Source: Stentor roeselii
Taxonomy: Eukaryota > Ciliophora > Heterotrichea > Heterotrichida > Stentoridae
Assembly: GCA_006503475.1 (NCBI GenBank)
Contig: RSEH01000096.1
Coordinates: forward strand, 92,754-156,753
Direction of reading: 5' to 3'
Length of the DNA: 64,000 bases
Of the stretch, positions 1-64,000 are shown piece after piece (within the stretch, counting starts at the first letter, position 1; the number at the start of each line of letters is the position of its first letter). The notes beneath the pieces are model-generated. The model had not been told where the DNA came from and made no database searches. It saw only the letters and a list, made by a program, of their open reading frames with translations. A program made the position numbers and the translations under genes.

Positions 1-510
1 ATCATCAGAAAATCCTCTATCATAAGCAAGTTGGTAATAAGGTGAAGGATCGAAGTCAGGTGAATTTGCATAGAGTTCAATATAATCTTTTTTGGTCTCG
101 CCGTCATCTGATGTGCAATAGTAATTAACAAAGTAAGTTTCTTGATCGGTATCAATCATCACTCCTTCAACATCCCCTTCCTCATGAATTTCGGTAAATC
201 TACCCCAGTTGCCTTCATGAATGTGGTGGTCAACGCTGAAGTAGTCAATAAAATAAACCCTGCCGGGGATTCCACTATACTTCGCAGCATCTAAGTAGTG
301 ATTGCTTTGTGATTTGAATTCAATCCTTACGCATTCTCCATAGCCATTAGGTCCATAATCTGATCTATAGATTTGGTAAAAGGGTTGATTCAAAAAGTCA
401 ATATTCAAGCCAGGGAGCTTTTGTTCTGAAGGACAGTTTCCAGGACGACCTAGATTGACCCATTCCCAAGCAAGAGAGAGAGAAATAAAACTCAGGAGAA
501 GCGATTTCAT
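1..510 (-). CDS. Lipocalin-like secreted protein, copy 1 (3' end cut by window edge)
   Basis: Reads leftwards from an ATG at 510 and is still open at base 1, so about 170 residues are visible and the C-terminus is missing. It begins with a hydrophobic signal peptide (MKSLLLSFISLSLA) followed by a Trp-rich mature start. Like the next two genes it has an early Cys, a Y-x-I-x-R motif, a second Cys, and the lipocalin-type block DTDQETYFVNYYC about 130 residues in, corresponding to the family's TDYxxY signature, followed by a conserved YDRGF region. Lipocalins are small secreted beta-barrels that bind hydrophobic ligands; the ligand here is unknown. It is a divergent tandem paralogue of the genes at 1189 and 2465. 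The family call rests on motif spacing only. Confidence 0.75.
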   Translation of the reverse strand, partial: MKSLLLSFISLSLAWEWVNLGRPGNCPSEQKLPGLNIDFLNQPFYQIYRSDYGPNGYGECVRIEFKSQSNHYLDAAKYSGIPGRVYFIDYFSVDHHIHEGNWGRFTEIHEEGDVEGVMIDTDQETYFVNYYCTSDDGETKKDYIELYANSPDFDPSPYYQLAYDRGFSDD

Positions 511-1188
511 ATTTATGGACGAAATTTTTTGGGAAATGGAAACTTTGGCTTGATTTATGTATGAGTGAATCGAAAATTTATGAAGAAGTGATAGCTAAAT
601 TCTGTAGTTTCTAGATATTAAGTGATTAGGATTTTTATTATTAGTCTTAAAGTAAGATTTTACTCTGAGAAAAAAGGGTAAGGATTGCATTTTAGAAATT
701 TTAAAACAATTTTTGGTGGTTTATATAAAGGAAAGAATGAATTGATTCTCTACTCATATTGAAAAAAAAACTTTGTGTTAAATTATGCTGAAAGAAAAAT
801 TTAAAAATATTAGGAACTTTGTTCCTACTATCCGTTTTGAATAGATTACAATAGAGTATGGAGTTTTTGAACTATTTTTGCTTAAACACCCATCTCGATC
901 CCACCTATTAATGAATATATTACAGTAAGTAGCCCTTTGATTAATTTAAACTTTCGACTAAACTGAATATCAATATCCACAAAGAAAATAATCCTTCAAA
1001 ACATTATGATTACTCTGAAACTCAAGAAACCTTATTATTTTGATGGATTATTCATCTAGGTGAGAATTTTTGATATAACCCAGTTAGATAAGTATTCTTA
1101 ACCCTTAACTATACTGAATTTAAAAATTTATCAGTATTTAGGTTAATTTCAAATAATCGTATATTAAAAGCTTAAGAGTATGCATTAT
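511..1188. other. Intergenic spacer
   Basis: AT-rich spacer between lipocalin-like copies 1 and 2. Apart from the conserved element near 810-842 and a 20-bp block directly upstream of the ATG (sense AAAATTTCGTCCATAAAT) I see no gene. Confidence 0.6.
810..842 (-). promoter_or_regulatory. Conserved upstream element, copy 1
   Basis: The plus strand reads TAGGAACTTT, then 10 bases, then TCCGTTTT. The same core and nearly the same spacing recur upstream of the two neighbouring paralogues. In this copy the first half is a perfect palindrome, TAGGAAC-TTT-GTTCCTA. It lies about 300 bp upstream of the start codon at 510. Conservation inside otherwise diverged AT-rich spacer suggests a regulatory site or remnant of the duplicated unit. 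Confidence 0.5.
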
Positions 1189-1773
1189 CTAGTAATTAGT
1201 CCTAATGGTAGCCTCACCACAGTACTCAACATTTTGATTAAGTCTTGTTAATTCTTCATCCTTGTAGCCCCTGTCATAAGCATATTGGTAATATTTTGAA
1301 TCATCAAAATCTCGGTAAATAGAATAAGTCTCAAAATATTTCCAAGTTTTTGTATTATTGTCACTAGGAACACAATATATAATCACATAATAAGTTTCAT
1401 AATCAGTATCAAGCACTTCAAAAGGTAAAGAAAACCCAAATGTGATATCAGCCATGCCTCCTTTTCCCCAAAAGCCTGGCTTTGTATCCCAAGTCATAAT
1501 GAAATCATTCACATAGTAAAATCCGTCTTGAAGCTTTGTATAAAAGGTATAATTTTGAACATTTCCTACTGGCTCATCCCAAATGAAATAGTTGCATTGA
1601 CCATAATCAAATATATCATCACTGGACCTTGTGATAATGTAAAATATTTTGTTTGGAATACCTGTTGAAAACTTATCCATCCCTCCAGTTTTTTCACAGA
1701 CTCCGTCATCCAAATTCGCTTCCCAATCCCAGGCAAGAGTGAGGCAGATAAAGCTCAGAAGCAGCGATTTCAT
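1189..1773 (-). CDS. Lipocalin-like secreted protein, copy 2
   Basis: 194 residues. The frame is open to 1821, but I choose the ATG at 1773 because MKSLLLSFICLTLAWDW then aligns with the signal peptide of both paralogues and the conserved leader CCATAAAT lies directly before it. Visible lipocalin features are an early Cys after a Gly/Val, F-Y-I-I-T-R followed by a second Cys (the strand A/B Cys pair), and VLDTDYETYYVIIYC, a strong match to the TDYxxY lipocalin motif, followed by an Arg-containing YSIYRDF segment and a C-terminal Cys. Likely secreted or vacuolar. Exact ligand and role cannot be told from sequence. Confidence 0.8.
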   Translation of the reverse strand: MKSLLLSFICLTLAWDWEANLDDGVCEKTGGMDKFSTGIPNKIFYIITRSSDDIFDYGQCNYFIWDEPVGNVQNYTFYTKLQDGFYYVNDFIMTWDTKPGFWGKGGMADITFGFSLPFEVLDTDYETYYVIIYCVPSDNNTKTWKYFETYSIYRDFDDSKYYQYAYDRGYKDEELTRLNQNVEYCGEATIRTNY

Positions 1774-2464
1774 ATTTATGGACGAAATTTTATGGAAATA
1801 TGAGAACTTATTAGATTTCATTTGAATGAATCAAAAGATAATAATTAGAGAAGAGTTTTATGAGATTGTAATAGAAAATAATTGAATATTTGAAAAATAA
1901 TTTGTTTTTTATAGAAAATTATCAGATGATAAGGAAGGAGTATTAAATAAAGAATAGTTTCAGAGTATTGTAGAGATAGGTGTGGTTTTTTTAAATGTAA
2001 AGAAGAAATAGTAGGAACTCTTGTATACGCTATTCGTTTTTAATGGAAAATATGTTTGAGTTTAAAGTTATTTTCGATATAAAATGGTAGAGTTCTTTGA
2101 ATTACGTTTACGAAGTATAAAATTGTTGTGTAATTCAGGTTAGTTGAAGAAGTGATATTCAAGTAAGAAATTTTGATTAAAATCATTAAATATTTAGAAA
2201 AATATAGCTTCTAGTAAGAAATTTAGAAAATTTAAGTTTAGGGTAAATGCTTAACTCTTAACGTATCCTCATAACTTATAAAGTATTTTTTGTATCGAAA
2301 AAAAAAATTTAAACATCCAAGTGAAGAAAAATTTCAATAATAAGCTAAAATATTCGATAGAATGTAAAGGATTAAAGTTTAAAATTATGATAAAAGGTAA
2401 ATGGAAACTACCATCTTCAATCTCAAATCTCTCTGATCAATATCTTAATTAAGCTATGCATAAA
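1774..2464. other. Intergenic spacer
   Basis: AT-rich spacer between copies 2 and 3. It carries the conserved element at 2012-2042; nothing else coding or structural recognised. Confidence 0.6.
2012..2042 (-). promoter_or_regulatory. Conserved upstream element, copy 2
   Basis: Plus strand TAGGAACTCT, 11 bases, TTCGTTTT, about 240 bp upstream of the ATG at 1773. It matches copies at 810 and 3281 in both half-sites and spacing. Confidence 0.5.
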
Positions 2465-3043
2465 CTAATTAGTTCTGATTGTATATTCCCCACAATATTC
2501 AACGTCTAAAAGCGTGTTTTCAAGTTGTTCATCAGTAAATCCCCTATCATACGCATAATGGAAATAAATGGAACTATCAAAATCACGAGTGGTTGCATAA
2601 ACCGCAAAATAGTCTCTTTTATAATTTTCATCAGCCTGAGTGCAACTATAATAAACATAATAAGTTTCAAAGTCAGTCTCAAGTACTTCAAAAGGTAAAT
2701 GACTTCCATGAGTATATTCAGTGATATTTCCCTTTCCCCAGTGACCCTGCTGAGTATACCATTCAATAGTAAATTCATTTTCGTAATACTTCCCATCCTG
2801 GAACATGACATAAAAAGTATAATTTTGGAATTCATTATCTGTCTCATGAAACTCTGCCCATGAACATGCACCGTAATTCATATCACCGTAACTTGATCTT
2901 GTGATCTGGTAAAATTTTGTATCGATTACAGCAGTTGAATAAGCATTTAGTCCAGATGTACTGTTGCATACTCCTTCGCGAAGTGTATAAATCCAGTCCC
3001 AAGAATAAGAGAGAGACAGAATACTCAAAAGCAGCAAATTCAT
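2465..3043 (-). CDS. Lipocalin-like secreted protein, copy 3
   Basis: 192 residues with signal peptide MNLLLLSILSLSYS and the same layout as copies 1 and 2: early Cys, F-Y-Q-I-T-R, second Cys, then VLETDFETYYVYYSC (TDYxxY-like; the Tyr is Phe here), YATTRDF and YDRGF near the C-terminus, ending CGEYTIRTN. Copies 2 and 3 are clearly closer to each other than to copy 1. It lies in the same orientation as both paralogues with spacers of about 680-690 bp, which indicates tandem duplication. Function beyond a small ligand-binding beta-barrel is inference. Confidence 0.8.
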   Translation of the reverse strand: MNLLLLSILSLSYSWDWIYTLREGVCNSTSGLNAYSTAVIDTKFYQITRSSYGDMNYGACSWAEFHETDNEFQNYTFYVMFQDGKYYENEFTIEWYTQQGHWGKGNITEYTHGSHLPFEVLETDFETYYVYYSCTQADENYKRDYFAVYATTRDFDSSIYFHYAYDRGFTDEQLENTLLDVEYCGEYTIRTN

Positions 3044-3748
3044 ATTTATGGTCGAAGATTTTTAGGGAAATGGATTCTTTACAAATATTTGATCATAGAG
3101 TGGATTGGTTTAGAAACGGATGAATTAAAGGATTGGGAAATTGTTTTAAGTTTTTAAAAAAGGTGTATTTGATTTTGGGATTCAAGATAGGGATACAAAT
3201 GAAAATTGATTTCAAGTTTGGTTTGGAATTAATCTTAAAAGTTTCTGAATGATTTTAGTTAGGGTATGGAAAAGTAATAGTAGGAACTTTTATAGGTGAT
3301 ATTCGTTTTAAAATGGTGAGGACCCTATATTTTTTTGTTAGAAACTGATTATTAAAGGTTTATAAAGAATGAAACTGGTTATTATATGATATCTTAAAGA
3401 AAATTGAATTACTTAAAAATAATTCTTACTGTTTTCTTTAAAATTATTTAAACAACCTTGGTTTTCAGTTCAGAAACTGCGAGTATCAATCTGCTTACAA
3501 CCTAAAAATCTTTTTGAAGTTTGGATCGCATTTAATACGAAACAGTATTATTTAGTTCTTTATATATTTACTCAAGGAGATTTCAATGAAAAGTTTCGAA
3601 ATGAAAAAGTTATTGGCTCATGTAAAATCTTTAACTCATGAAAAACATGCTTGCTCATGAAAAATGTTTTATTATACGTTAATTCTAATCAAAAAGTACC
3701 TTGTTCTGCTAATCGACGTCTTCAGTTGACAAGTAATAACTAATAAAT
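3044..3748. other. Intergenic region between divergent genes
   Basis: Separates lipocalin copy 3 from SEC23. It holds the conserved element at 3281-3315. A short imperfect repetition of CTCATG-A-AAA units occurs near 3615-3670. No gene seen. Confidence 0.6.
3281..3315 (-). promoter_or_regulatory. Conserved upstream element, copy 3
   Basis: Plus strand TAGGAACTTT, 11 bases, TTCGTTTT, about 240 bp upstream of the ATG at 3043. Third occurrence of the element shared by the lipocalin-like genes. Confidence 0.5.
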
Positions 3749-9708: not shown

Positions 9709-10800
9709 ATGAAGTTCTTTATTGACAATGGAGCTTATTGCTTGAAGATTGGACAAGAAGGGCAGGAGCCTGCATCTGTTTTTAATTGTATTTCGAGTTG
9801 TAAGAAGGATCTGGTGGTTGCTCCTAAGAGTTTGCAGAATACTACGGAAGTTTTAAGACCTTTTGAAAGAGGAGTTTTAGTTGACCCTGAGCTGCAGTTG
9901 AAGATATGGAAAGGATGCTTGCCGATCGGAATTAGTCAGCTCGTTGTTACTTCGCCTTTGTATTGTCCGCCTACTGCTAGACATGCTCTTGATGAACTTG
10001 CTTTTGAGGACTTGCAAATACCTTCTCTTGCTAGAGTTAGCACTGGGGTAAACGAGCAATGTTTACTCCTAGTAGACCTCGGTTTTTCATGCATAACAGT
10101 GACTCCAATAGTATCAGGTCTTCCCGTAAACTACGCAGTAGTGCGTTGCAACGTGGGAGGGAAGCTGATAACAAATTACATGAAAGAGCAAATTTCCTAC
10201 CGATTCTTCGACATGACTGAAGAAACCTGGTTAGTAAGTCACATCCGCGAGCAAGCCTGCCACGTTTCTCTTGACTTCCTCAAAGAGCTGCGAGACATTC
10301 AGTAACAACTACGAAGACACAAACGTTGCAAAGACAAAATTTACGCCTTGCCCGACAATTACGACATGGGCTTCCTCGTCTCTTCATCTGAAAATCAAGA
10401 CTTTTCCACTCGGCAATTGATGAATCTTTCAAATCTCGTCATCACTGTTCCTGAATTACTCTTCAAACCAAGTGACGCCGGAATTGACTGTGGAGGTGTT
10501 CATGAAGGAATCATTGAAAGTATTTCTAAACTTCCTGCTGAAACTGCCAGAGATTTGTTGAAAAATGTTTGGATTTGTGGAGGACTTGCAAAAACTCCTG
10601 GATTGCTGGAAAGACTTAGAATTGAATTGAGGATGATGGTTGATTATGATGTCAGGGTGTTTAAAGTCAATGAGTAATGTTTAGGAAGTGAAATTTATGA
10701 TTGCTGGGAAAATTTGAAGAATGTTCAGGGATTTGTGAGTAAGAAGGAGTATGAAGAGATGGGCAGCTGGTATTTAGATACTTTATTCCACTATGCTTAA
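9709..10800 (+). CDS. ARP6: Actin-related protein 6 (SWR1/SRCAP subunit)
   Basis: 353 residues after removal of two 15-nt introns. ARP6 is a subunit of the SWR1 chromatin remodeller that deposits histone H2A.Z. The start FIDNGAYCLKIG is the actin-fold phosphate loop. LRPFERGVLVDPE, VDLGFSCITVTP, NVGGKLITNYMKEQISYR and FKPSDAGIDCGGVHEGI are ARP6-like, and the C-terminal KKEYEEMGSWYLD matches the family end. Splicing the first intron yields the expected YALPDNYDMGF segment in frame, and the second yields the last 36 residues. The protein is somewhat shorter than animal and yeast ARP6 (about 400). The TAA at 10798 lies 8 bp from the convergent neighbour. Confidence 0.92.
10302..10316 (+). other. 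15-nt intron 1 of ARP6
   Basis: GTAACAACTACGAAG. It carries an in-frame TAA; its removal joins DIQ to HKRCKDKIYALPD, as expected from ARP6 homologues. Confidence 0.92.
10674..10688 (+). other. 15-nt intron 2 of ARP6
   Basis: GTAATGTTTAGGAAG. It carries an in-frame TAA; its removal extends the protein by 36 residues that match the ARP6 C-terminus. Confidence 0.92.
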
Positions 10801-10808
10801 TTAACTTA

Positions 10809-11612
10809 TCAGATTAGCAGTAGTGAAACGAGCGAAAGAAAACAATTAAGAATCGCCGATGAATGATAAAGAGTTGGATGTATTTCATTAAGTTTTCGTG
10901 AATTGTTATTCTCAAACAGGTATTTTATAACTTCGACTTGCCAATCAGCAGCTTCTTTCACGTCTTTTATAATAAACCACAGAATATTTTCTTGGCAACG
11001 CAAGTCTGGATGAGTTGCTGTTCCAACATAATGCCAGTATGAGTCTGTGTTTTCAACAATTTCGCGCAAGTTCACGTTTGAAGTATTGGATGTCAAGTAA
11101 TTTGACTTCGCTTGTTTTAATTCACGTTTCCATTCACTGATACCTGTCGAGTTCAAAAAATAACTTTCTTTTCCTTTCTGGATTATCACTGACACTATCG
11201 CCATGTTCGGCTTGTCTAGTTCCCAGTATTTGTCTTCAATGTTGCAGATTATCTGCATTTCTATTGGAAAAAAAGTACCGCCTATCTTGTGCTCTGAGGG
11301 AGTGTGAAACTCGATGAACTTGACATTGAAATTTCTTCTTCCATTAATATCCCCGACTTCAATATATCCAAGATTGCTTTGTATCCGTATCATATTCCCG
11401 GTATTCTGTATCGTTTGCGCTCCTGTATATCCCCAAAACACCATCTTCATCTGCTTTGAAGAGCTGATCTTTTTCGCACTGGAAGGATCTATAATAGCAG
11501 GTGATCGATCCGACACATAACACCCTTCATATCCCCAGTTGTCTTGTTTGTTGTAAGACCATTCGATGCTCATAGTGTAGAGAAAGCAACTAATAAATAC
11601 AAAAGTTTTCAT
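10809..11612 (-). CDS. Carbonic-anhydrase-related protein (alpha class, zinc ligands lost)
   Basis: 267 residues: a signal peptide (MKTFVFISCFLYTMS), an alpha-carbonic-anhydrase fold, then a hydrophobic C-terminus (LNCFLSLVSLLLI) that looks like a GPI-anchor signal. The core KFIEFHTPSEHKIGGTFFPIEMQ aligns with the family's FHFHTPSEHxxNGxxYPxEMH. Of the three zinc-binding His, the first is Glu (E101), the second is kept (H103) and the third is Gln (Q120). The GSLTTPP loop reads GTATHPD, so the gatekeeper Thr is also changed. It is therefore predicted not to hydrate CO2 and more likely acts as a surface binding protein, as known for animal CA-related proteins. Single exon; 47 bp from the divergent neighbour. 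Confidence 0.85.
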   Translation of the reverse strand: MKTFVFISCFLYTMSIEWSYNKQDNWGYEGCYVSDRSPAIIDPSSAKKISSSKQMKMVFWGYTGAQTIQNTGNMIRIQSNLGYIEVGDINGRRNFNVKFIEFHTPSEHKIGGTFFPIEMQIICNIEDKYWELDKPNMAIVSVIIQKGKESYFLNSTGISEWKRELKQAKSNYLTSNTSNVNLREIVENTDSYWHYVGTATHPDLRCQENILWFIIKDVKEAADWQVEVIKYLFENNNSRKLNEIHPTLYHSSAILNCFLSLVSLLLI

Positions 11613-11659
11613 TATAAGTTACTTCGATAAGTTAATAATATTCTATTCATCATAAATCA

Positions 11660-13407: not shown

Positions 13408-15775
13408 TTAATTTATTTCGCCAGTTTTTGATTTAGATACTCAGCATTTTTCTTGTTGGGTTTTAGATGAGGAAATGGTTTATTAATATGGGATTTTGGA
13501 TTGAAAGTGATGAGATTTTAGCAATTTTTTTAGGGGAAAAGAAATGAAGGGGGAGATTTAGGATTTAGGATTTTTTTTTATTTTTATTTGAAGAGGGTTT
13601 TTTGGAAGGATTTGAAATTGTGATGGGTTTTATTATTTGGATTAGTTTTGGGTAGGATTGGATATCTGGATCATGTTTATATTAAATTGATTATTATTAG
13701 ATAAGGAACACTTTTATATTTCTAATCATCTTTGTTTACGGCAGGTTTTTGTTTTCTTTGGTTTAGATATATTTTAGGTGAGATGATTGAAAGATTCTTG
13801 TTTAAAGTTTTTTAAATGTTTTTTCTGTGCTAAGGGTGCTTTTTTATCTTTTTATTAACTTAAGCTTAAGACATTTTTGGATTATTTATGCAAAACTTTA
13901 AGATAAATCTAAATTATTATGTTTAAATGGATTATTTATGCAAAATTTAAGATAAGTCTAAATTGTTATGTTTAAATGTCTTATTAATGATGAAAATGAT
14001 GCTCAACTATTAACGACTGAACAAAACTTGACTAGCAAGTATTTAAGATGATAGGATTATCAAATTCAATCATTAAGTCATTATTTCGCATAATAAGTAT
14101 ATCTTAAGTTCATAACTTAGTAAGATTAATAATCTCTGTTAATCTCATCCTTTATAAGATTTATAAACTTCATCAGAGTTAAAATAAAGCAGCCGATCAA
14201 GTTCATCAAATTCAAAATTTGAATTCTCTAAAATTTGCCAAATTATATATATATCCTTTAAGATTAAGGCATCTATTTCTCTTAAGTCTCTATAAAGAAT
14301 TCTATCAAATACTTGTCCAGTTACTCTTTATCTGATTTACAGTTATTGTGACATAACAGTATGATTACGACCAAACATAAATCATTTTAAGTCAAACTCT
14401 CTTATCTGATTATAACTAATAACTAGGTCCCTTTATTTTTATACTTCTGAGCCAAACAAAATTATTCTATAACTTTATAATTTAGACAAAGACCTTATTA
14501 GCATCATATTTACACCACTCATAAAGAAGTGTTAGTCGAAGGTTTTCTAAATTTGTTCTAAAAATAATATAAAAAAAACAAATAGTTATGAACAATTTGA
14601 ATGAATATCATAAATCAAATTAGGAATAGCTAGTTCACTTAGTAAAGGAATCAATTTTTATTCATTAAATAGTAAAAAAATTACTTAAATATCTAAAAGG
14701 ATCAATTTTAATTAAATTTTGATCTTTACTGCTATCAGATGAAAATATAAAAAAGTTTAATTACTATTGTCATATACTTCATCAATATCTTTATTTTTAA
14801 AAAAACAGTAAATACGTTGGAGTTACTTTTGAGTCTGTTAAAGTCAATAGGGTATGGCACGAAATTTTAAAATGTTTTATTGACTTTCAAGTTTAGAGAC
14901 TTTGAAGTCTTAATATAAATAAACATAATAGCAAAACCCTATAGGGTATTGGATTATTAAAGTTCATATCAGTCAAATTAATCAAATTACTATACAAAAT
15001 GATGTTCAAATATTAAACAATATAAGCCAGCTAATAATTCACAAAAAGTAATATTATTAGAGAGATATCTAAAAATTTGTATCTTTTAAGCTCCAATTTA
15101 ATTCAAATTATAGCAAACAAAACAAATTGTATCAAATATATTATACTGTCTGAAAGAAAAAAGATAAATGAAAAATAAATGCTTTCTAAATTTTTTGAAT
15201 CTTTCATCAAAATAAAGTATTATCTTTTCAATAAAACAGATTCTATCGACTTGATTTTTTTATGGTATATAAAATTAAACTTTTCAACTTGAAGTTTATC
15301 TAATATCCTTATCATTCTGCTAAATATTGAAATTAATTGTGCTTCCAAGTGATTCTATTCCCATATCTTCAAAAGTTTGTTTTTTCTAATATTTTAAAAG
15401 TTTTTCTCTACCTGAGCCTAAAGTACCTTTTTCCAACAATGCATTTCTTAATCAAATCAGTAAATCACTTTTGAATAAAGAGTCTAAATTTTAAAAATCT
15501 TACTTTATAGGCCTTTTGATTCCATTTTTCCATAATAATTTATTAAATATTCCTCACTTCAATAAAACTCTTCTCAAGATCACCTTGAGTTAAAAAGTCT
15601 TATCAAATTCATCAATAAACGAATTTTTCCAATTAGTCCTCTTTTCCATTTAAAGTGTTTTTAAATCATGAAAAAATAATGAAAATTTTATGATGCTCAA
15701 TCTTTAAATACCTGGAAAGCTTTGTATGAATTAAAATTCACACGATCACTCAAGTCATATTATCCATAAATATAA
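13408..15775. other. Large AT-rich gene-free region
   Basis: About 2.4 kb without a supportable gene. The first 230 bp upstream of the zinc-finger gene are G/T-rich on the plus strand, and the rest is very AT-rich. It contains an inverted-repeat-flanked tandem duplication (13867-13983) and a 12-bp palindrome ACCCTATAGGGT at 14936-14947. No tRNA-like B box was found on reading. Confidence 0.6.
13867..13983. repeat. Two-copy tandem repeat flanked by 10-bp inverted repeats
   Basis: TAAGACATTT at 13867-13876 is the exact inverse complement of AAATGTCTTA at 13974-13983. Between them are two near-identical copies of a 50/49-bp unit (13879-13928 and 13929-13977, beginning GGATTATTTATGCAAAA). It resembles a minute inverted-repeat element; origin unknown. 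Confidence 0.7.
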
Positions 15776-30176: not shown

Positions 30177-31492
30177 ATGGGAGGAGCTCTTTGTTGTGCA
30201 GGCACTGCCTGCTGCCAATGCATGTGTGGAGTCTGCATGCGCTGTTGCGGGACTTCACATCAACAGCACACTCGAATCGGTTACCTAAGCCTGACAATGG
30301 TTGCAATATTCTTCGGTCTAATCTTTCTTTATTTCGGTTCAGACATGATGTCTCCCTGGGAAAATTTCGGTTTCGGTAATTCTTACAAAGACTGTCACGG
30401 CGACAAAAAAAGTGTTTGTTTAGGAGTTTTCACTATCTACAGAGAAAGCTTCACATTAGTCATTTTTTACTTCTGTATGCTGCTCGGGTCACTTCCAGGC
30501 GGAAGTTTTTCCACAATATTCAACCGTAAGTTTAAACAGAAAGTTGCTGGACTCTAAGAATCCTTCTGATAATCGTTTTATTCATTCTGACCTTTTTCAT
30601 CCCAAACAGTTTTTTTGTAAATTCCAAAAAGGAAGTCTTTCGAGAGATCTGCAGATATGTCTCATTATTTTACCTGCTCGTTCAAATAATCGTCATCATC
30701 GATTTCGGCTATTCATGGAGTGAGGCCTGGACTGAAAGTTACGAGCAATCCGGGAATTCAAATCAAAAACTTTGCGGATTGTTTTTTTTTTCAGGGTTAT
30801 TCTGGGCGGTTTCCTTAGTAACGATAGTGATGTGTTATCTTTGGTTCACTGGTCCTGGTTGTGACACTGAAATCGCTTTGATTACTTTGACTCTTGTGTT
30901 TGGAATTGGATTTACTGTCTTGTCGATGACCAGCTTTGTAGAGCATGGGTGTAAGAATTAGGCAGCTTTGCTTACTAGCTCTGTGGTCAACGGGTATATC
31001 ACTTATTTGTGTTGGGATGGAATGACTAATAACACCCGGGAACAGTGCAATGACTGGAACAATGCGAAGGATACTGGAGTTAGTATCACTGTCGGTGTTG
31101 TTATTTTGTTAGCGACTTTGGCTTATATTTGCTTTCGGAAAAGGGAGAAGATTCAGGATCAGACTCCTTTGAGAAATGCTGCTGAACCTATTTTAGCTGA
31201 TGAGGATGATGAACAGGTACCTTATCAGGTGGAACCTGATGAAAGATATGGAAGGAAAATGATTGGATTTCATGCTTTTATGCTTTTGGCTAGCTTTTAC
31301 TTTAGCATGTTGCTTACTAATTGGGGAAGTGCGAATATTAAGAATAATGATAGCAAAACTTATGAGAAGTAAGAAGTTTTTAGTAATGAAGCAAGCTTGT
31401 GGATCAAGTTTAGTGCTTTGTGGACTACTGTCGCTCTTTATGTCTGGACTTTGATCGCTCCGAGGCTTTGCTCTGGAAGAGATTTCTCTTGA
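30177..31492 (+). CDS. SERINC: SERINC/TDE1 family membrane protein
   Basis: 423 residues after removing three tiny introns (14, 15 and 15 nt); the summed coding length is divisible by three and ends at a TGA. SERINC proteins are ten- to eleven-helix membrane proteins linked to serine-derived lipid distribution and scrambling. Family features are the Cys-rich N-terminus MGGALCCAGTACC, TRIGYLSL, the CWTLRILLII segment, FREICRYVSLFYLLVQIIVIIDFGYSW, HGSLLTSSVVNGYITYLCWDGM and the end LWTTVALYVWTLIAPRLCSGRDFS. Each junction restores a canonical SERINC segment, so the spliced model is well supported. Confidence 0.93.
30526..30539 (+). other. 14-nt intron 1 of SERINC
   Basis: GTAAGTTTAAACAG, the only 14-nt intron among twelve. 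Only a removal of length 2 modulo 3 joins STIFN to QSCWTLRIL in frame. It keeps GTAA, the TA five bases from the end, and AG. A one-base assembly deletion is the alternative. Confidence 0.75.
30951..30965 (+). other. 15-nt intron 2 of SERINC
   Basis: GTAAGAATTAGGCAG, containing the in-frame TAG; splicing yields HGSLLTSSVV, the expected SERINC sequence. Confidence 0.92.
31369..31383 (+). other. 15-nt intron 3 of SERINC
   Basis: GTAAGAAGTTTTTAG. It is the only intron of the set without an A at the usual branch position (T instead). Splicing joins KTYE to NNEASLWIKF and the canonical SERINC end. Confidence 0.88.
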
Positions 31493-57112: not shown

Positions 57113-58036
57113 TCAGCCCAGTTCAAGACTTTTCTCATCAGAAGTGTCTTTAACGAGTTTTCCATTTTCCCATCGTCCTTGAAACTTTTTCCCATTTCTA
57201 CAAGTAAGAGTTCCAAAACCATGTTTCAAATCATTTCGATACTCACCATCATAAACTTTTCCAGAAGGCCAAGAAAAGCATCCTTTTCCGTTCATTTGAT
57301 TTTCTTTCCACTGTCCTCGATAGACTTTTCCATTCGGCCAGGTGTAAACTCCAAATCCATGAAAGCGATTTTTCAGAAATTCTCCTTGATAAGAACTTCC
57401 ATCAGGCCAAACGAATCGTCCTTCGCCTTCTTTGATTCCTTTTTCAAACGACCCTTCAAAATAAGACCCGTCTTTCCAGTCCTCTCGTCCTTTTCCATGT
57501 TGTTTATTAGCTGAAAACTGTCCTTCATAGGAAAATCCTTCAGCCGTGACTAGTTTTCCTCTGCCTTCAAACATTCCATGAAGAAAGTCTCCTTGGTAGT
57601 AGCCTCCTGAAGCGAAAATCAAACGTCCTGCTCCGTGTTTTTTATTTGAAAAGAAATGCCCGATGTACTTGTTTCCTGAATGAACCTCAATCCCTTCACC
57701 GGATTTTTGGTTGTTTTCATCAAGACGGCCTTGGAAAAATGAACCGTCTTCAAGAAGGTAAACTGGGAAATCGCTTATGGTTAAATGGTAGTCTTCTAAT
57801 AATGACTCGGTTTTAACCACCTGGGATGGAAGGACTGACATCAGGTCTAATTTCAACTCGCGAGGCTTTGATTTCTGGGTTTCGGATTTCGTTGGGGTTT
57901 CTGAAATGCTTTCTAGACTTTCTTCTTTTATTATTTCAAGGGAGGCTGGAGCGTATTTGAGGCTTAGGTCTATGTCTTGAAGTTTTTTTTGGTTTATGGG
58001 AACTCCGCGAAGACATGATGTGCAGTTTTGGCCCAT
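57113..58036 (-). CDS. Acylated MORN-repeat protein
   Basis: 307 residues, starting at ATG 58036 (sense AAATAAAATGGG). This start is chosen over an upstream in-frame ATG at 58135 because MGQNCTSC is a classic myristoylation/palmitoylation signal and fits the local start context. Residues about 100-300 consist of nine MORN repeats of 23 residues (for example YYQGDFLHGMFEGRGK, YRGQWKENQMNGKG). MORN proteins organise cortex and membranes in ciliates and apicomplexans. Binding partner unknown. Single exon. Confidence 0.87.
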   Translation of the reverse strand: MGQNCTSCLRGVPINQKKLQDIDLSLKYAPASLEIIKEESLESISETPTKSETQKSKPRELKLDLMSVLPSQVVKTESLLEDYHLTISDFPVYLLEDGSFFQGRLDENNQKSGEGIEVHSGNKYIGHFFSNKKHGAGRLIFASGGYYQGDFLHGMFEGRGKLVTAEGFSYEGQFSANKQHGKGREDWKDGSYFEGSFEKGIKEGEGRFVWPDGSSYQGEFLKNRFHGFGVYTWPNGKVYRGQWKENQMNGKGCFSWPSGKVYDGEYRNDLKHGFGTLTCRNGKKFQGRWENGKLVKDTSDEKSLELG

Positions 58037-59328: not shown

Positions 59329-62300
59329 TTAAAAAATTATATAATTAATAACTACTAACCAAAGAATACCAAAGGAACTAGTTGATTGTTTCAAGTTTAT
59401 ATACTTATCTATGGGCTCTGAACATGAAGGATATCCTGGATATTTATCGCAAATGATACAGCCTATCTTATAATTATTTAATAGAGCATCTGATCCAATA
59501 TTCGTAAAATTGATATATATTGAATCTGCTTCATGTTCATAAACTGAAAAATACAAACTTCCAATCGTATAATTATTATGTTCAATTTCTTCCCAAAAAA
59601 TTGTATCAGTTGTGATTTTAATATCTGTTTTATCTATAACTATGCATTTAATAATTCCATCTGAATCAGATGTAAAGTTAAAGATTAGCACATCATCTTG
59701 CAAATCCCATGCATAATCAATAAATCTTGCTTGATAAATATTTCTTTGAATAGATGAGATATCAGCTGTATAACCAGTAATTCTTTCTATTGAATATTTA
59801 TTTTCAGAAAGCAATTCAAAACAATCTTCAACTTTTGTAGGATCAGCCAAAAAAAGTAAATCAATTCCACTTTGAATGTGTCTTCTATCTAATTCTGTGA
59901 TTGAAATAAGTTCCTTTTTCCAATTAATAATGTTTGCTACTTGTTCTATGAGTATGTTTATATTAATGTTTGAGTCTTCATCTGAATATTGTTGACGAAA
60001 AGTTATTAATGCATGATTTTTTAGAGATTTCGTTGTAATTTTTTCTAGAGTTTTTTGTAAAATATTTCCGGATAAGTTATCAATGTATGAAATTATGACG
60101 TATTTTGTTTATAAATTTAAATATTGAAACTGGAATAATTTTTTTGAAAATAAAAAATTTTTGTGGTTTATTTTAGCTATATTATTACTCTCAAATATAT
60201 CTTTTATTTATTTTGTTTCAGGAACCAAAAAATCAACACTCATTATAGAATTTTCACCTTTATTTACCAAACTTTGTCCAGGGATCATAATAAAACGTCC
60301 TTGATACATAAGACCTTTAAATATATATTCTTCATAGTAACTCGTGAATATTTCCTGATATTTTTGTTTAATTTCCTTTATATGCTCCTCAATGCTCAAA
60401 TTCGAATCCTCAGAAGTAATACTATGAACCTTTCTGAGAATTTTTATATATTCGAAGTCATTATCATTAAAAATATTATCTGAAACAATAGCCCAAGTTA
60501 ATATTCCTTTTGAATCAGAGTTGATGTTGAAATCAAATCCAACTGACGTAGGTTTACTTAATGAATATGTAATTTTTCCTGTTTTCGAATATTCTGCTTT
60601 ACTAATAAATAAAATTTTTTCTGTTATTTGAAAAGTTTTAGCATCTTTTCCATCGACTCTCGCATTTACTATATAATCTTTTACTTCAGTGCAATCATCG
60701 CAACTGATAATAAATTTATTTTTAGGGAAACTAGGACTTAATATCACAGGATTTGGCTCTATGACTATATTCTTTGATGAATCTTCAGGTGTTAATACAA
60801 TAAAAAGATCATTATATGGATAGATAGTTTGCGTTTCTGAAAAAATATTTATTAAAATTGGAAGGCTATGAGTTTTAGGATTCACATAAATGTCTTCTTC
60901 TGGCAAAATAATCTTGTAAATTTTATTATTAGAAACCTCTATAAATGTAGGTCTTGGCTTGATATATTTTGAATATTTTCTTTCATTTACATTATCCTGA
61001 ATTAAATCCCAATAAATATAATAAAGTCCATATTTTGATGTAGAATCTGCTCCAATATATATATCGACATATTTTGTGTTTTGATCAAGACTGAAATGTC
61101 CATCATTACTTATTGAAATTCCTGCATTTGAACCGAAACCAGAAAAAGAAACGGTTCCCACTAATTCAAGTAGACTATCAGAAGTATCATGTTCATCCAA
61201 TCCAATAGTAAAAGGTCCACAAAAGGTTCCAGCTGTTATTAAAATATGACTATCAAGGTGGTTAGTTAAACTTAATTTTCCATAATCATTATAAAATCCA
61301 GTAAATGCAGCATTAAGGTTATCAAAAGAAGATTTTCTTACGATATTAGAAGAGTCTTGCGCGAAAATTGAAAACTTTCTACTTAGATAATCAAAATCAT
61401 TAGGTTCAAATTTCAAATCTTCACTTGGAAACCCGTAACCAGGATATCCAAATTGCTCAAAATTTAAAATTGTCCAGAAATTTTCACTATCAAAGCGCAA
61501 ATCATCATCAATATTAATTTTTAAAAAGTTCGCATCGATAGTAAAGTCTAAGTATGCATACCGATTATAATAATAATTATATATTGAACATTCTTTTTTT
61601 TTATATATAGCCAATAGATCACTATATGGCTCTGGAAATATAATCGTTAGGCTTAAACCATTTTCAAATTGTTTATTAATATTAACCCAAAGAGATAGTG
61701 ATTCACTATCTTTTTCAATTTCTACAAAATATAAGTTTATAGAGTCTTTAATTTTAGTGTTAAAAAACATTTTTTGTTTGTCTTTTGCATAGTAAGGCTG
61801 AAATAATAAATTATCATATTGATCTTTAATATAAACATTGAACCAGCCAGAACTTTGAGGAGTTGTAAGTTTCATTTTTATTGTAAAAGCTCTCATAGCC
61901 ATTATTTTTTTATTATAATTGCATGAAACAATCCAATGATTTGCAGAGCAAATTAAACTTTTTCCTAATTCATCAAAGGCTTCAATATATTTAAGGTCGT
62001 TTAATCTCGAGAATTGATTCGAAGGGCCAGGGATTGAGTTATAATTACCACAGGCATCGAAATCAATTGAAAAAAAATTAGGAGTCTCAGTGTCTAGAGT
62101 CAATTCAAAGGTATGCCATGAGATATATCCAGGGCTCATTATTTCTGAATAAAATTCGAGATTAATTATATAACTGGTCAGTCTCGGAAGAATTTTCAAT
62201 TTTTTTTCTTTTTCTTTAATACTATCATCAATTACTTTAGTTGATAATGCATCATCGCAAATAACCTTAACAAAAAAATCGCTTGATTCCAGAGTATTGA

Positions 62301-62568
62301 GATCAAAAGCATAGTCAAGAATAATTTCAAAAAAACTATTTGCTTTGATAGGAACTTCTGTGACTATAAAGAGTGTATTTAAATATACTTTTGCTGATTT
62401 ATATGAATGGCTGCACCATAAATCTTGTTCTATATCAAGGTGATCAGAAAATTGGCCAGATATTGAAACAGTTGCATCTTGAAGAATTTCATAATCGACA
62501 AAAAATTTAATCCAAAAAAAACCTTTTGAGATCCAAGAATGTTGGGATACACCCTTTGTAATAACATA
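59329..62568 (-). pseudogene. AT-rich surface-protein-like reading frame interrupted by an IES-like insert
   Basis: An open frame runs from 62568 to a TAA at 60208, then, in the same frame, from 60108 to 59329. The interruption has two TAA stops and is bounded by a perfect 10-bp direct repeat; removing 108 bp joins FLVPETK to YVIISYIDNLSG and gives 1,043 residues. There is no ATG near the 5' end, only a TAA at 62571, so the first exon is missing or the gene is decayed. The product is Asn/Asp/Tyr/Ile-rich and beta-like, with repeated SDSxGI motifs and a hydrophobic C-terminus (FGILWLVVINYIIF) resembling a GPI signal. Codon choice is far more AT-rich than in the rest of the window. Family not recognised. 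Confidence 0.6.
60101..60218. mobile_element. IES-like insert flanked by 10-bp direct repeats
   Basis: TATTTTGTTT occurs at 60101-60110 and 60209-60218. The repeat period is 108 bp (36 codons). Deleting one repeat plus the intervening sequence removes both in-frame TAA codons and leaves a continuous frame. The segment is extremely AT-rich and has no GT-AG ends compatible with the frame, so it is not an ordinary intron. Confidence 0.6.
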
Positions 62569-62978
62569 TTAAGCTATTTCTGTGTATGGATAGAGTTATT
62601 AGATAATTTGCGGATATTAATGCTTTTTATTATCGAATGATTTAAGTGATTATTTTAAAAATTATTTATTACCAAAATGAGATGAATAAAAATAGGATAG
62701 ATATTAATGTCAATCGCCTAATCTAACGGTTGACTTAGATTGAAATTCAGAAAAAATAAAATTTTATTTTATAATGACTAGTTTAATTTATTCAATCCAT
62801 CTAAAAGAATTTTAAAATAATCCTTAAAAATATTAAAGAAATATCTATACAATTATACAAATTTTATTTTATGTTTACAGAATAAAAAAAGGGAATCTAA
62901 TAATAATAATAATAATAAGAAAATATATTATCTAATCAATATTTAATGAAAGATATTCTATTTATGAATTATGAAAAA
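62569..62978. other. AT-rich gap between broken frames
   Basis: About 410 bp with stops in all frames and a (TAA)7 microsatellite at 62898-62918. Nothing else recognised. Confidence 0.6.
62898..62918 (+). repeat. (TAA)7 microsatellite
   Basis: Seven perfect TAA units in AT-rich spacer. Confidence 0.9.
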
Positions 62979-63809
62979 TTATGAAAATTTTATGAGATTA
63001 AATTTTTTGTACACCCATATCTCTGAATTTGAGCTTTGTTGAATTGGGATAAATTCTGGATCACTTGGTATTGTAGTAGTTTCCGATCCTGAATTCTCCC
63101 AAATGAAATAATTATTATTGTCTTTTTCAATCATAATCGATTTGAACCCTTCGAAAGGATTAATAGTTCCAATATCAGGAAGTTCAGCATTTGATATTAT
63201 TATATTGAAAAGTGTACCACTAGATATTACTTTATCTATTGAGAGTGATATTAAATTATTATCATTTATCCTGCAGCCAATTCTTATTGATTCCACTTTT
63301 ATAATACAATCTAGACTATCATATATTTTCCAGTAATCAAGTGTAATTTTAATAATGGAACCAGGGTCTAGATTCAATTTTAGCTTAAAATTTAATCTAA
63401 CTTGAGTTGTTCTTGAATTATACCATGAGTTGGTGATAGTTGAAGGGTAATAATCAGATATTAAAATTTTCCCTGGACCTGTAGTTATTTTCCCTTGTAG
63501 AAAAACGCAGTTTTTATTCGAAAACTCAGAGTCGTAAACATAAGTCAAGTAATATTGAACATGATCAGTTTCAGTTATAATAATCGAGCTTGGAATAATC
63601 GATAAATAGAAAAAATATTCAACTCCTTCAATTTCAGAAACACTTCCAAATGATTCTTTAAAGTAAATATTGAATTTGAAGTTATGATTAGATGAGGTAA
63701 TTGAATTTGTTATAAAATTTTCATAAATAGTTTTAAATCCTTGAGGTAAAATAAGGAATGACGAGTAAGTAACAGCATCATTTATTATCCCATTTGAATC
63801 AAGATCTGC
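62979..63809 (-). pseudogene. Second AT-rich surface-protein-like frame, no start codon
   Basis: Open for 277 codons from just after a TAA at 63812-63810 to a TAA at 62979. No ATG lies near the 5' end and no 15-nt intron rescues it. The composition (Asn, Ile, Ser, Asp-rich) and motifs (ADLDSNGIINDA near the start, beta-strand-like ILPQGFKTIYENF, PGSIIKITLDYWKIYD) resemble the frame at 59329-62568, suggesting an upstream part of the same gene or a paralogue. It lies in a different phase from that frame. It may be a decayed gene or a set of fragments interrupted by uneliminated DNA. Confidence 0.5.
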
Positions 63810-63812
63810 TTA

Positions 63813-64000
63813 CCTAGTTTTATTTTCATTATCCTTTAATTTATTGTAATTATCTTATAGATTGTTGTTTTTGTGGATTTAAAGATTTAAAAATCGTGTT
63901 TAGTAAAGGGATCTATTGTAAGTCACTCAGAGATAAGAATTTGTATAATTAATTAGGTTTAATTCATATTAAAGTCTTATTATGGGAAGCTTACTTTTCT
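63813..64000. other. Window-end AT-rich sequence
   Basis: Stops in all frames; no gene seen. The upstream part of the broken frame may lie beyond the window. Confidence 0.5.

Follow-up and report, generated by a model that had tools for sequence, protein, structure and literature searches.

Why are two long open reading frames, which seem to belong together, kept apart by a short AT-rich segment with the same ten letters at both its ends? The two frames, of 786 and 259 codons, lie on the minus strand near the right end of the window, i.e., the whole stretch of 64,000 nucleotides that was analysed, and the segment that parts them occupies 60101–60218. The original prediction described it as an internal eliminated sequence (IES) that was left in a macronuclear assembly. 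Our answer is a tentative one: the 108-bp unit may be an IES-like segment, unexcised in this assembly, and we give this reading slightly less than an even chance. A gene that was recently broken by insertions explains the sequence almost equally well, with the IES slightly favoured. The features that are discussed are listed in Table 1.

Table 1. Location of the features discussed in the text; positions are those of the window.
Feature	Position	Strand	Description
ARP6-like actin-related protein gene	9709–10829	+	two 15-nt introns: 10302–10316, 10674–10688
Carbonic anhydrase gene, eukaryotic-type	10809–11618	-	Pfam E 9.7e-22
Downstream frame	59329–60108	-	259 codons, no Met; hydrophobic C-terminal tail (by eye)
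Direct repeat, copy 1	60101–60110	+	TATTTTGTTT; on the coding strand AAACAAAATA; contains TA
Insert between the repeats	60111–60208	n/a	98 bp, 14% GC, non-coding by codon score
Direct repeat, copy 2	60209–60218	+	TATTTTGTTT; 108 bp from copy 1
Upstream frame	60208–62568	-	786 codons; terminates in ETK-TAA at the insert; residue 144 is the first Met
Second AT-rich interruption	62569–62978	n/a	410 bp with 18% GC; separates the 276- and 786-codon frames
Further frame	62979–63809	-	276 codons; codon-position composition similar to the other two; first Met is residue 226

The host genome

The window behaves like heterotrich-like ciliate DNA, with 15-nt introns and the standard genetic code. Introns of 15 nt in its genes start with GTA, carry an A at position 10 and end with AG. 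This pattern is found 36 times, compared to 23.8 expected, and one of 100 shuffles reaches that number. Stentor introns are described as 15–16 nt long, usually with the branch A in position 10 or 11, in a genome with the standard code (excerpts of PMC9505925). Besides the ARP6-like gene, of which the protein matches Pfam Actin (E 1.1e-37) and has Actin-related protein 6 as its best PDB match (E 4.5e-41), there is a RING protein gene with pieces joined by three 15-nt introns, and a SERINC gene with one such intron between two exons of which the matches follow each other along the Pfam model. When TGA is read as Trp, the long frames in the window gain little.

Pfam matches were obtained for six of the ten window proteins tested. 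The genes with matches each consist of one open frame, or are interrupted only by gaps short enough for tiny introns, and they read through without any TAA. The original prediction had suggested, as an alternative, that the region derives from micronuclear DNA. As genes are not IES-interrupted throughout and the conserved genes elsewhere look intact, this does not hold for the window as a whole, which is not germline-type DNA; it could hold for the last 5–6 kb.

Two other regions of the window stand out on inspection. At 1–3061, on the minus strand, three tandem genes that look similar by eye encode small secreted-looking proteins of about 200 amino acids; the single one tested, at 1192–1821, has no Pfam match. 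In addition, a 2.4-kb island at 13408–15775, with a GC content of 24%, lacks long frames and includes a 49-bp tandem repeat at 13878–13989; it is possibly another decayed or interrupted gene.

The split gene

The arrangement that was originally described is confirmed by the letters. The 10-bp direct repeats are perfect, both copies are exact and in place at a spacing of 108 bp, and of the two in-frame TAA codons one (60210–60208) is the stop of the 786-codon frame, while the other (60111–60109) is the codon preceding the 259-codon frame. Removal in silico of one repeat copy together with the 98-bp insert, 108 bp in total, fuses the frames in phase into 1,043 codons without a stop, with the junction reading ...VPETK-YVIISY...; this is the minimal interval that restores the frame. 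The fused frame still lacks a start. As 259 codons contain no Met, the downstream frame is very likely the continuation of another frame, probably of the 786-codon one, which probably lacks its own start as well. Altogether, it is strongly suggested that both were one former reading frame.

The original prediction missed the second interruption and the lack of a start. Beyond this interruption, the 276-codon frame probably belongs to the same gene as well, or else to a neighbouring one. The 276- and 786-codon frames would be fused, at the minimal interval, if 413 bp were deleted at an ATA repeat. At the tight edges of this break there is only that 3-bp repeat, which proves nothing, and the longest in-phase repeat found is 6 bp. 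Within the gap, a 14-bp direct repeat occurs at 62759 and 62859, spaced 100 bp. No start codon for the gene is in view (62569–62978 and 63810–64000); the single ATG in the 410-bp gap has no route to the 786-codon frame via 15- or 16-nt introns.

The three frames share an unusual composition. Their GC content at the third codon position (GC3) is 0.16–0.21, compared to 0.28–0.43 in 22 genes or ORFs measured in frame elsewhere in the window (a comparison that leaves out 57116–58035 and 30178–30554, of which the coordinates are out of frame), and resembles the GC content of the local non-coding DNA (0.14–0.24). Codon selection is thus not visible, as would be expected equally of a silent gene, of a dead gene and of germline-limited DNA. 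Positions 1 and 2 have a GC content of 0.29–0.36, above that of position 3, which indicates that the three frames did encode protein.

The nature of this protein was sought in several collections. Pfam has no match for any of the three frames. There is no homologue of the 786-codon frame among PDB sequences, where the best match of the fused 258-residue piece has an E of 1.2, and none of that frame in plasmids or prokaryote genomes. The three frames, each searched singly, have no match in viral contigs. PHROGs gives only an unnamed family, for the 259-codon frame (E 0.045), and the window has no Rfam match at gathering scores. These searches covered collections other than eukaryote genomes, so that the absence of relatives means little. 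An Fn3-like motif seen by eye across the junction (LVPETK-YVIISY) was rejected, as an internal repeat test gives p 0.34 and 0.80 and Pfam nothing.

A possibly broken gene

The absence of a start and the composition of the frames can also be understood without any excision. It is possible, though somewhat doubtful, that a gene in ordinary macronuclear DNA was truncated and split by insertions, i.e., by a small element that duplicated 10 bp of its target, or by filler DNA, between the two repeats, and by the 410 bp of the second interruption. What is left would be a recent pseudogene or a set of fragments. An early Met is lacking in all three frames, two large breaks occur within 4.5 kb, GC3 resembles that of local non-coding DNA, suggesting codon use without selection, and for the 410-bp gap no in-phase repeat longer than the 6 bp mentioned above was found.

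The number and kind of the breaks plead against such a history. In a gene that is no longer constrained, small lesions should outnumber insertions of at least 100 bp. However, the 1,321 codons of the three frames are parted by just two large AT-rich blocks; neither break is a single stop or a small frameshift, and further small lesions are not seen. This counterargument is based on the number of breaks and not on the absence of stops, as the frames are open by definition. Moreover, the higher GC content at positions 1 and 2 has been kept. Inverted repeats of at least 9 nt are present inside the insert, none of them pairing its two ends, and no convincing relative or second copy was found within the window (best blastn match E 0.006 over 31 bp).

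The significance of the repeat

Is the repeat more than a coincidence? Breaks were simulated by drawing coding flanks at random and placing between them local non-coding DNA, likewise random and with TAA at its borders. A repeat of at least 10 bp that is in phase and free of stops was found at 2, 6 and 22 of 6000 breaks when the cut-points lay within 12, 15 and 30 nt of the edges, respectively, i.e., at 0.03–0.4% of given breaks. In addition, 176 frame pairs of the window were scanned for repeats of at least 8 bp, a length below which repeats would escape. Only the case at the insert and one spurious match were found, the latter being a 9-bp match (31677/31110) that spans the SERINC and RING genes, both of them ordinary. 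For 176 pairs at the 30-nt rate, about 0.65 chance matches are expected; the repeat is therefore notable for this break and not for the whole window.

An improbable alternative is that the frames are real and that the repeat arose by accident in DNA of 25% GC, or that the contig end joins unrelated molecules. Direct repeats of 10 bp in AT-rich islands occur at background level (34 observed, 35.0 expected), the decamer TATTTTGTTT is over-represented in the window (6 copies, both repeats included, compared to 1.01 expected in shuffles), and another frame pair has a match of nearly the same length across ordinary genes. On the other hand, a match at a given break is as rare as the simulation indicates, and here the phase is right as well. 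The match is thus good but not overwhelming evidence beyond chance. Repeats spaced 95–110 bp number 4, compared to 1.04 expected (p 0.05), a post hoc count on which no claim is made.

Possible translation or splicing of the segment

The segment could also be kept in the protein, with TAA as a sense codon, or be cut from the RNA as an unusual intron. The interior of the insert is open in frame between the two TAA codons, as it is in 3.9% of 5000 Markov simulations, which is weak evidence for translation, and reading TAA as an amino acid gives a frame of 1,191 codons. However, the genes with Pfam matches contain no TAA that is read through, and the codon usage of the insert is that of non-coding DNA. 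The codon log-odds of the insert are -0.176 per codon (32 sense codons). In 246 windows from neighbouring coding frames, each scored leaving itself out, the mean is +0.107 and the lowest value -0.129. Among 1266 non-coding windows 71% score at least as high, an approximate share, as most of these windows have DNA in common with the non-coding model. As the score is below that of all coding windows and within the non-coding distribution, translation of the insert is unlikely. There is no ATG on its coding strand. For the C-terminal piece read through with TAA as Q, the predicted structure has a mean pLDDT of 33.5, too low to use.

With regard to splicing, the statement that no GT–AG pair fits was essentially right. 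In a search in which up to 120 nt of coding sequence could be lost on the left and up to 150 nt on the right, 195 nt is the length of the shortest GT–AG solution, which costs coding sequence on both sides, whereas the introns supported here are 15 nt. None of the chains of 15/16-nt or 13–25-nt introns crosses the segment, and no GT–AG intron of a supported length joins the frames. One AT–AC pair, 105 nt apart, does fit the phase. Taken together, readthrough and unusual splicing are both very unlikely.

A possible retained IES

We return to the reading that is slightly favoured. According to this reading, a non-coding unit of 108 bp lies inside a single gene, between direct repeats containing TA, and its precise removal, together with one repeat copy, would recreate the gene. 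It would be present in the assembly because some macronuclear copies retain the segment, or because germline or incompletely processed molecules went into the assembly of the contig end. An excisase of the PiggyMac type, the candidate excisase in Blepharisma, may remove it; insert-free molecules should then exist, and the 410-bp break upstream may be the same kind of thing. The part of the original prediction that can be read from the DNA stands: the genome is of the heterotrich type, TA-containing repeats bound an insert that is non-coding by its codon log-odds, the frame is restored and no supported splice accounts for the segment. That the segment is absent from other DNA molecules or from the RNA is what the reading would predict.

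Several points speak against a retained IES. The repeat of 10 bp is longer than the commonest ones in Blepharisma, the 410-bp break has a 3-bp repeat and a start is lacking; given the last two of these, the gene may simply be dead. Conserved genes elsewhere in the window also look uninterrupted, and 10-bp direct repeats are no commoner than background in DNA of this kind. The IES is nevertheless favoured slightly over a broken gene, because the long open frames are parted by few blocks, large and AT-rich, and repeats bound one of these blocks just where the frame needs them. In a still stronger version, retained IESs would keep the gene of a standard-code, Stentor-like heterotrich switched off in the macronucleus, and the 108-bp and 413-bp segments, alternatively retained or excised, would form an on/off switch at the DNA level; this seems highly improbable. 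Should the segment be an IES retained in a Stentor-like genome, it would offer a concrete coordinate and an exact length where existing long reads could show excision without mating. A dead gene, by contrast, would be ordinary.

Comparison with known systems

Among the matches listed in our literature search, the scope of which lies outside bioRxiv and most subscription journals, there is detailed work on IESs in Blepharisma, and no title or abstract start deals with IESs in Stentor. The known system closest at hand is that of Blepharisma stoltei. Published excerpts mention about 40,000 IESs in Blepharisma. Of these, 10,778 have a length of about 65–115 bp, with 72 and 110 bp as the most abundant peaks, about 70% are intragenic, and in some three quarters the terminal repeats contain TA, with TA, TAT/ATA and TATA as the commonest forms (excerpts of PMC9942856). 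The segment described here resembles the periodic IESs of this species: it is intragenic, has TA-containing terminal direct repeats, must be removed precisely for the reading frame and is found in a host with 15-nt introns. Its length of 108 bp falls within the periodic class (65–115 bp, with peaks every 10–11 bp, one of them at 110 bp), although one length cannot show periodicity.

There are differences as well. The repeat is 10 bp, in contrast to the short repeats of B. stoltei, and excision is putative here. The original prediction invoked the AT-richness of ciliate IESs. The insert is indeed AT-rich, far more so than its surroundings, but this is not a mark of the Blepharisma IESs, of which the GC content equals that of the somatic genome (33.3% compared to 33.5%; excerpts of PMC9942856). 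The host, moreover, appears to use the standard code, whereas UGA encodes Trp in B. stoltei (excerpts of PMC9942806). Terminal inverted repeats longer than expected by chance are described as common but heterogeneous in the short periodic IESs of heterotrichs.

Two further systems can be compared. The TA-bound IESs of Paramecium are likewise short and intragenic, with TA at the boundary. However, they share the end motif TAYNR (excerpts of PMC9942856), which by eye is present at neither end here when read inwards from the TA of the repeat. Lastly, a MITE-like non-autonomous DNA element with a target-site duplication would also appear as a short non-coding insert between direct repeats, but the segment differs from such an element in its unpaired ends and in the lack of a convincing second copy in the window.
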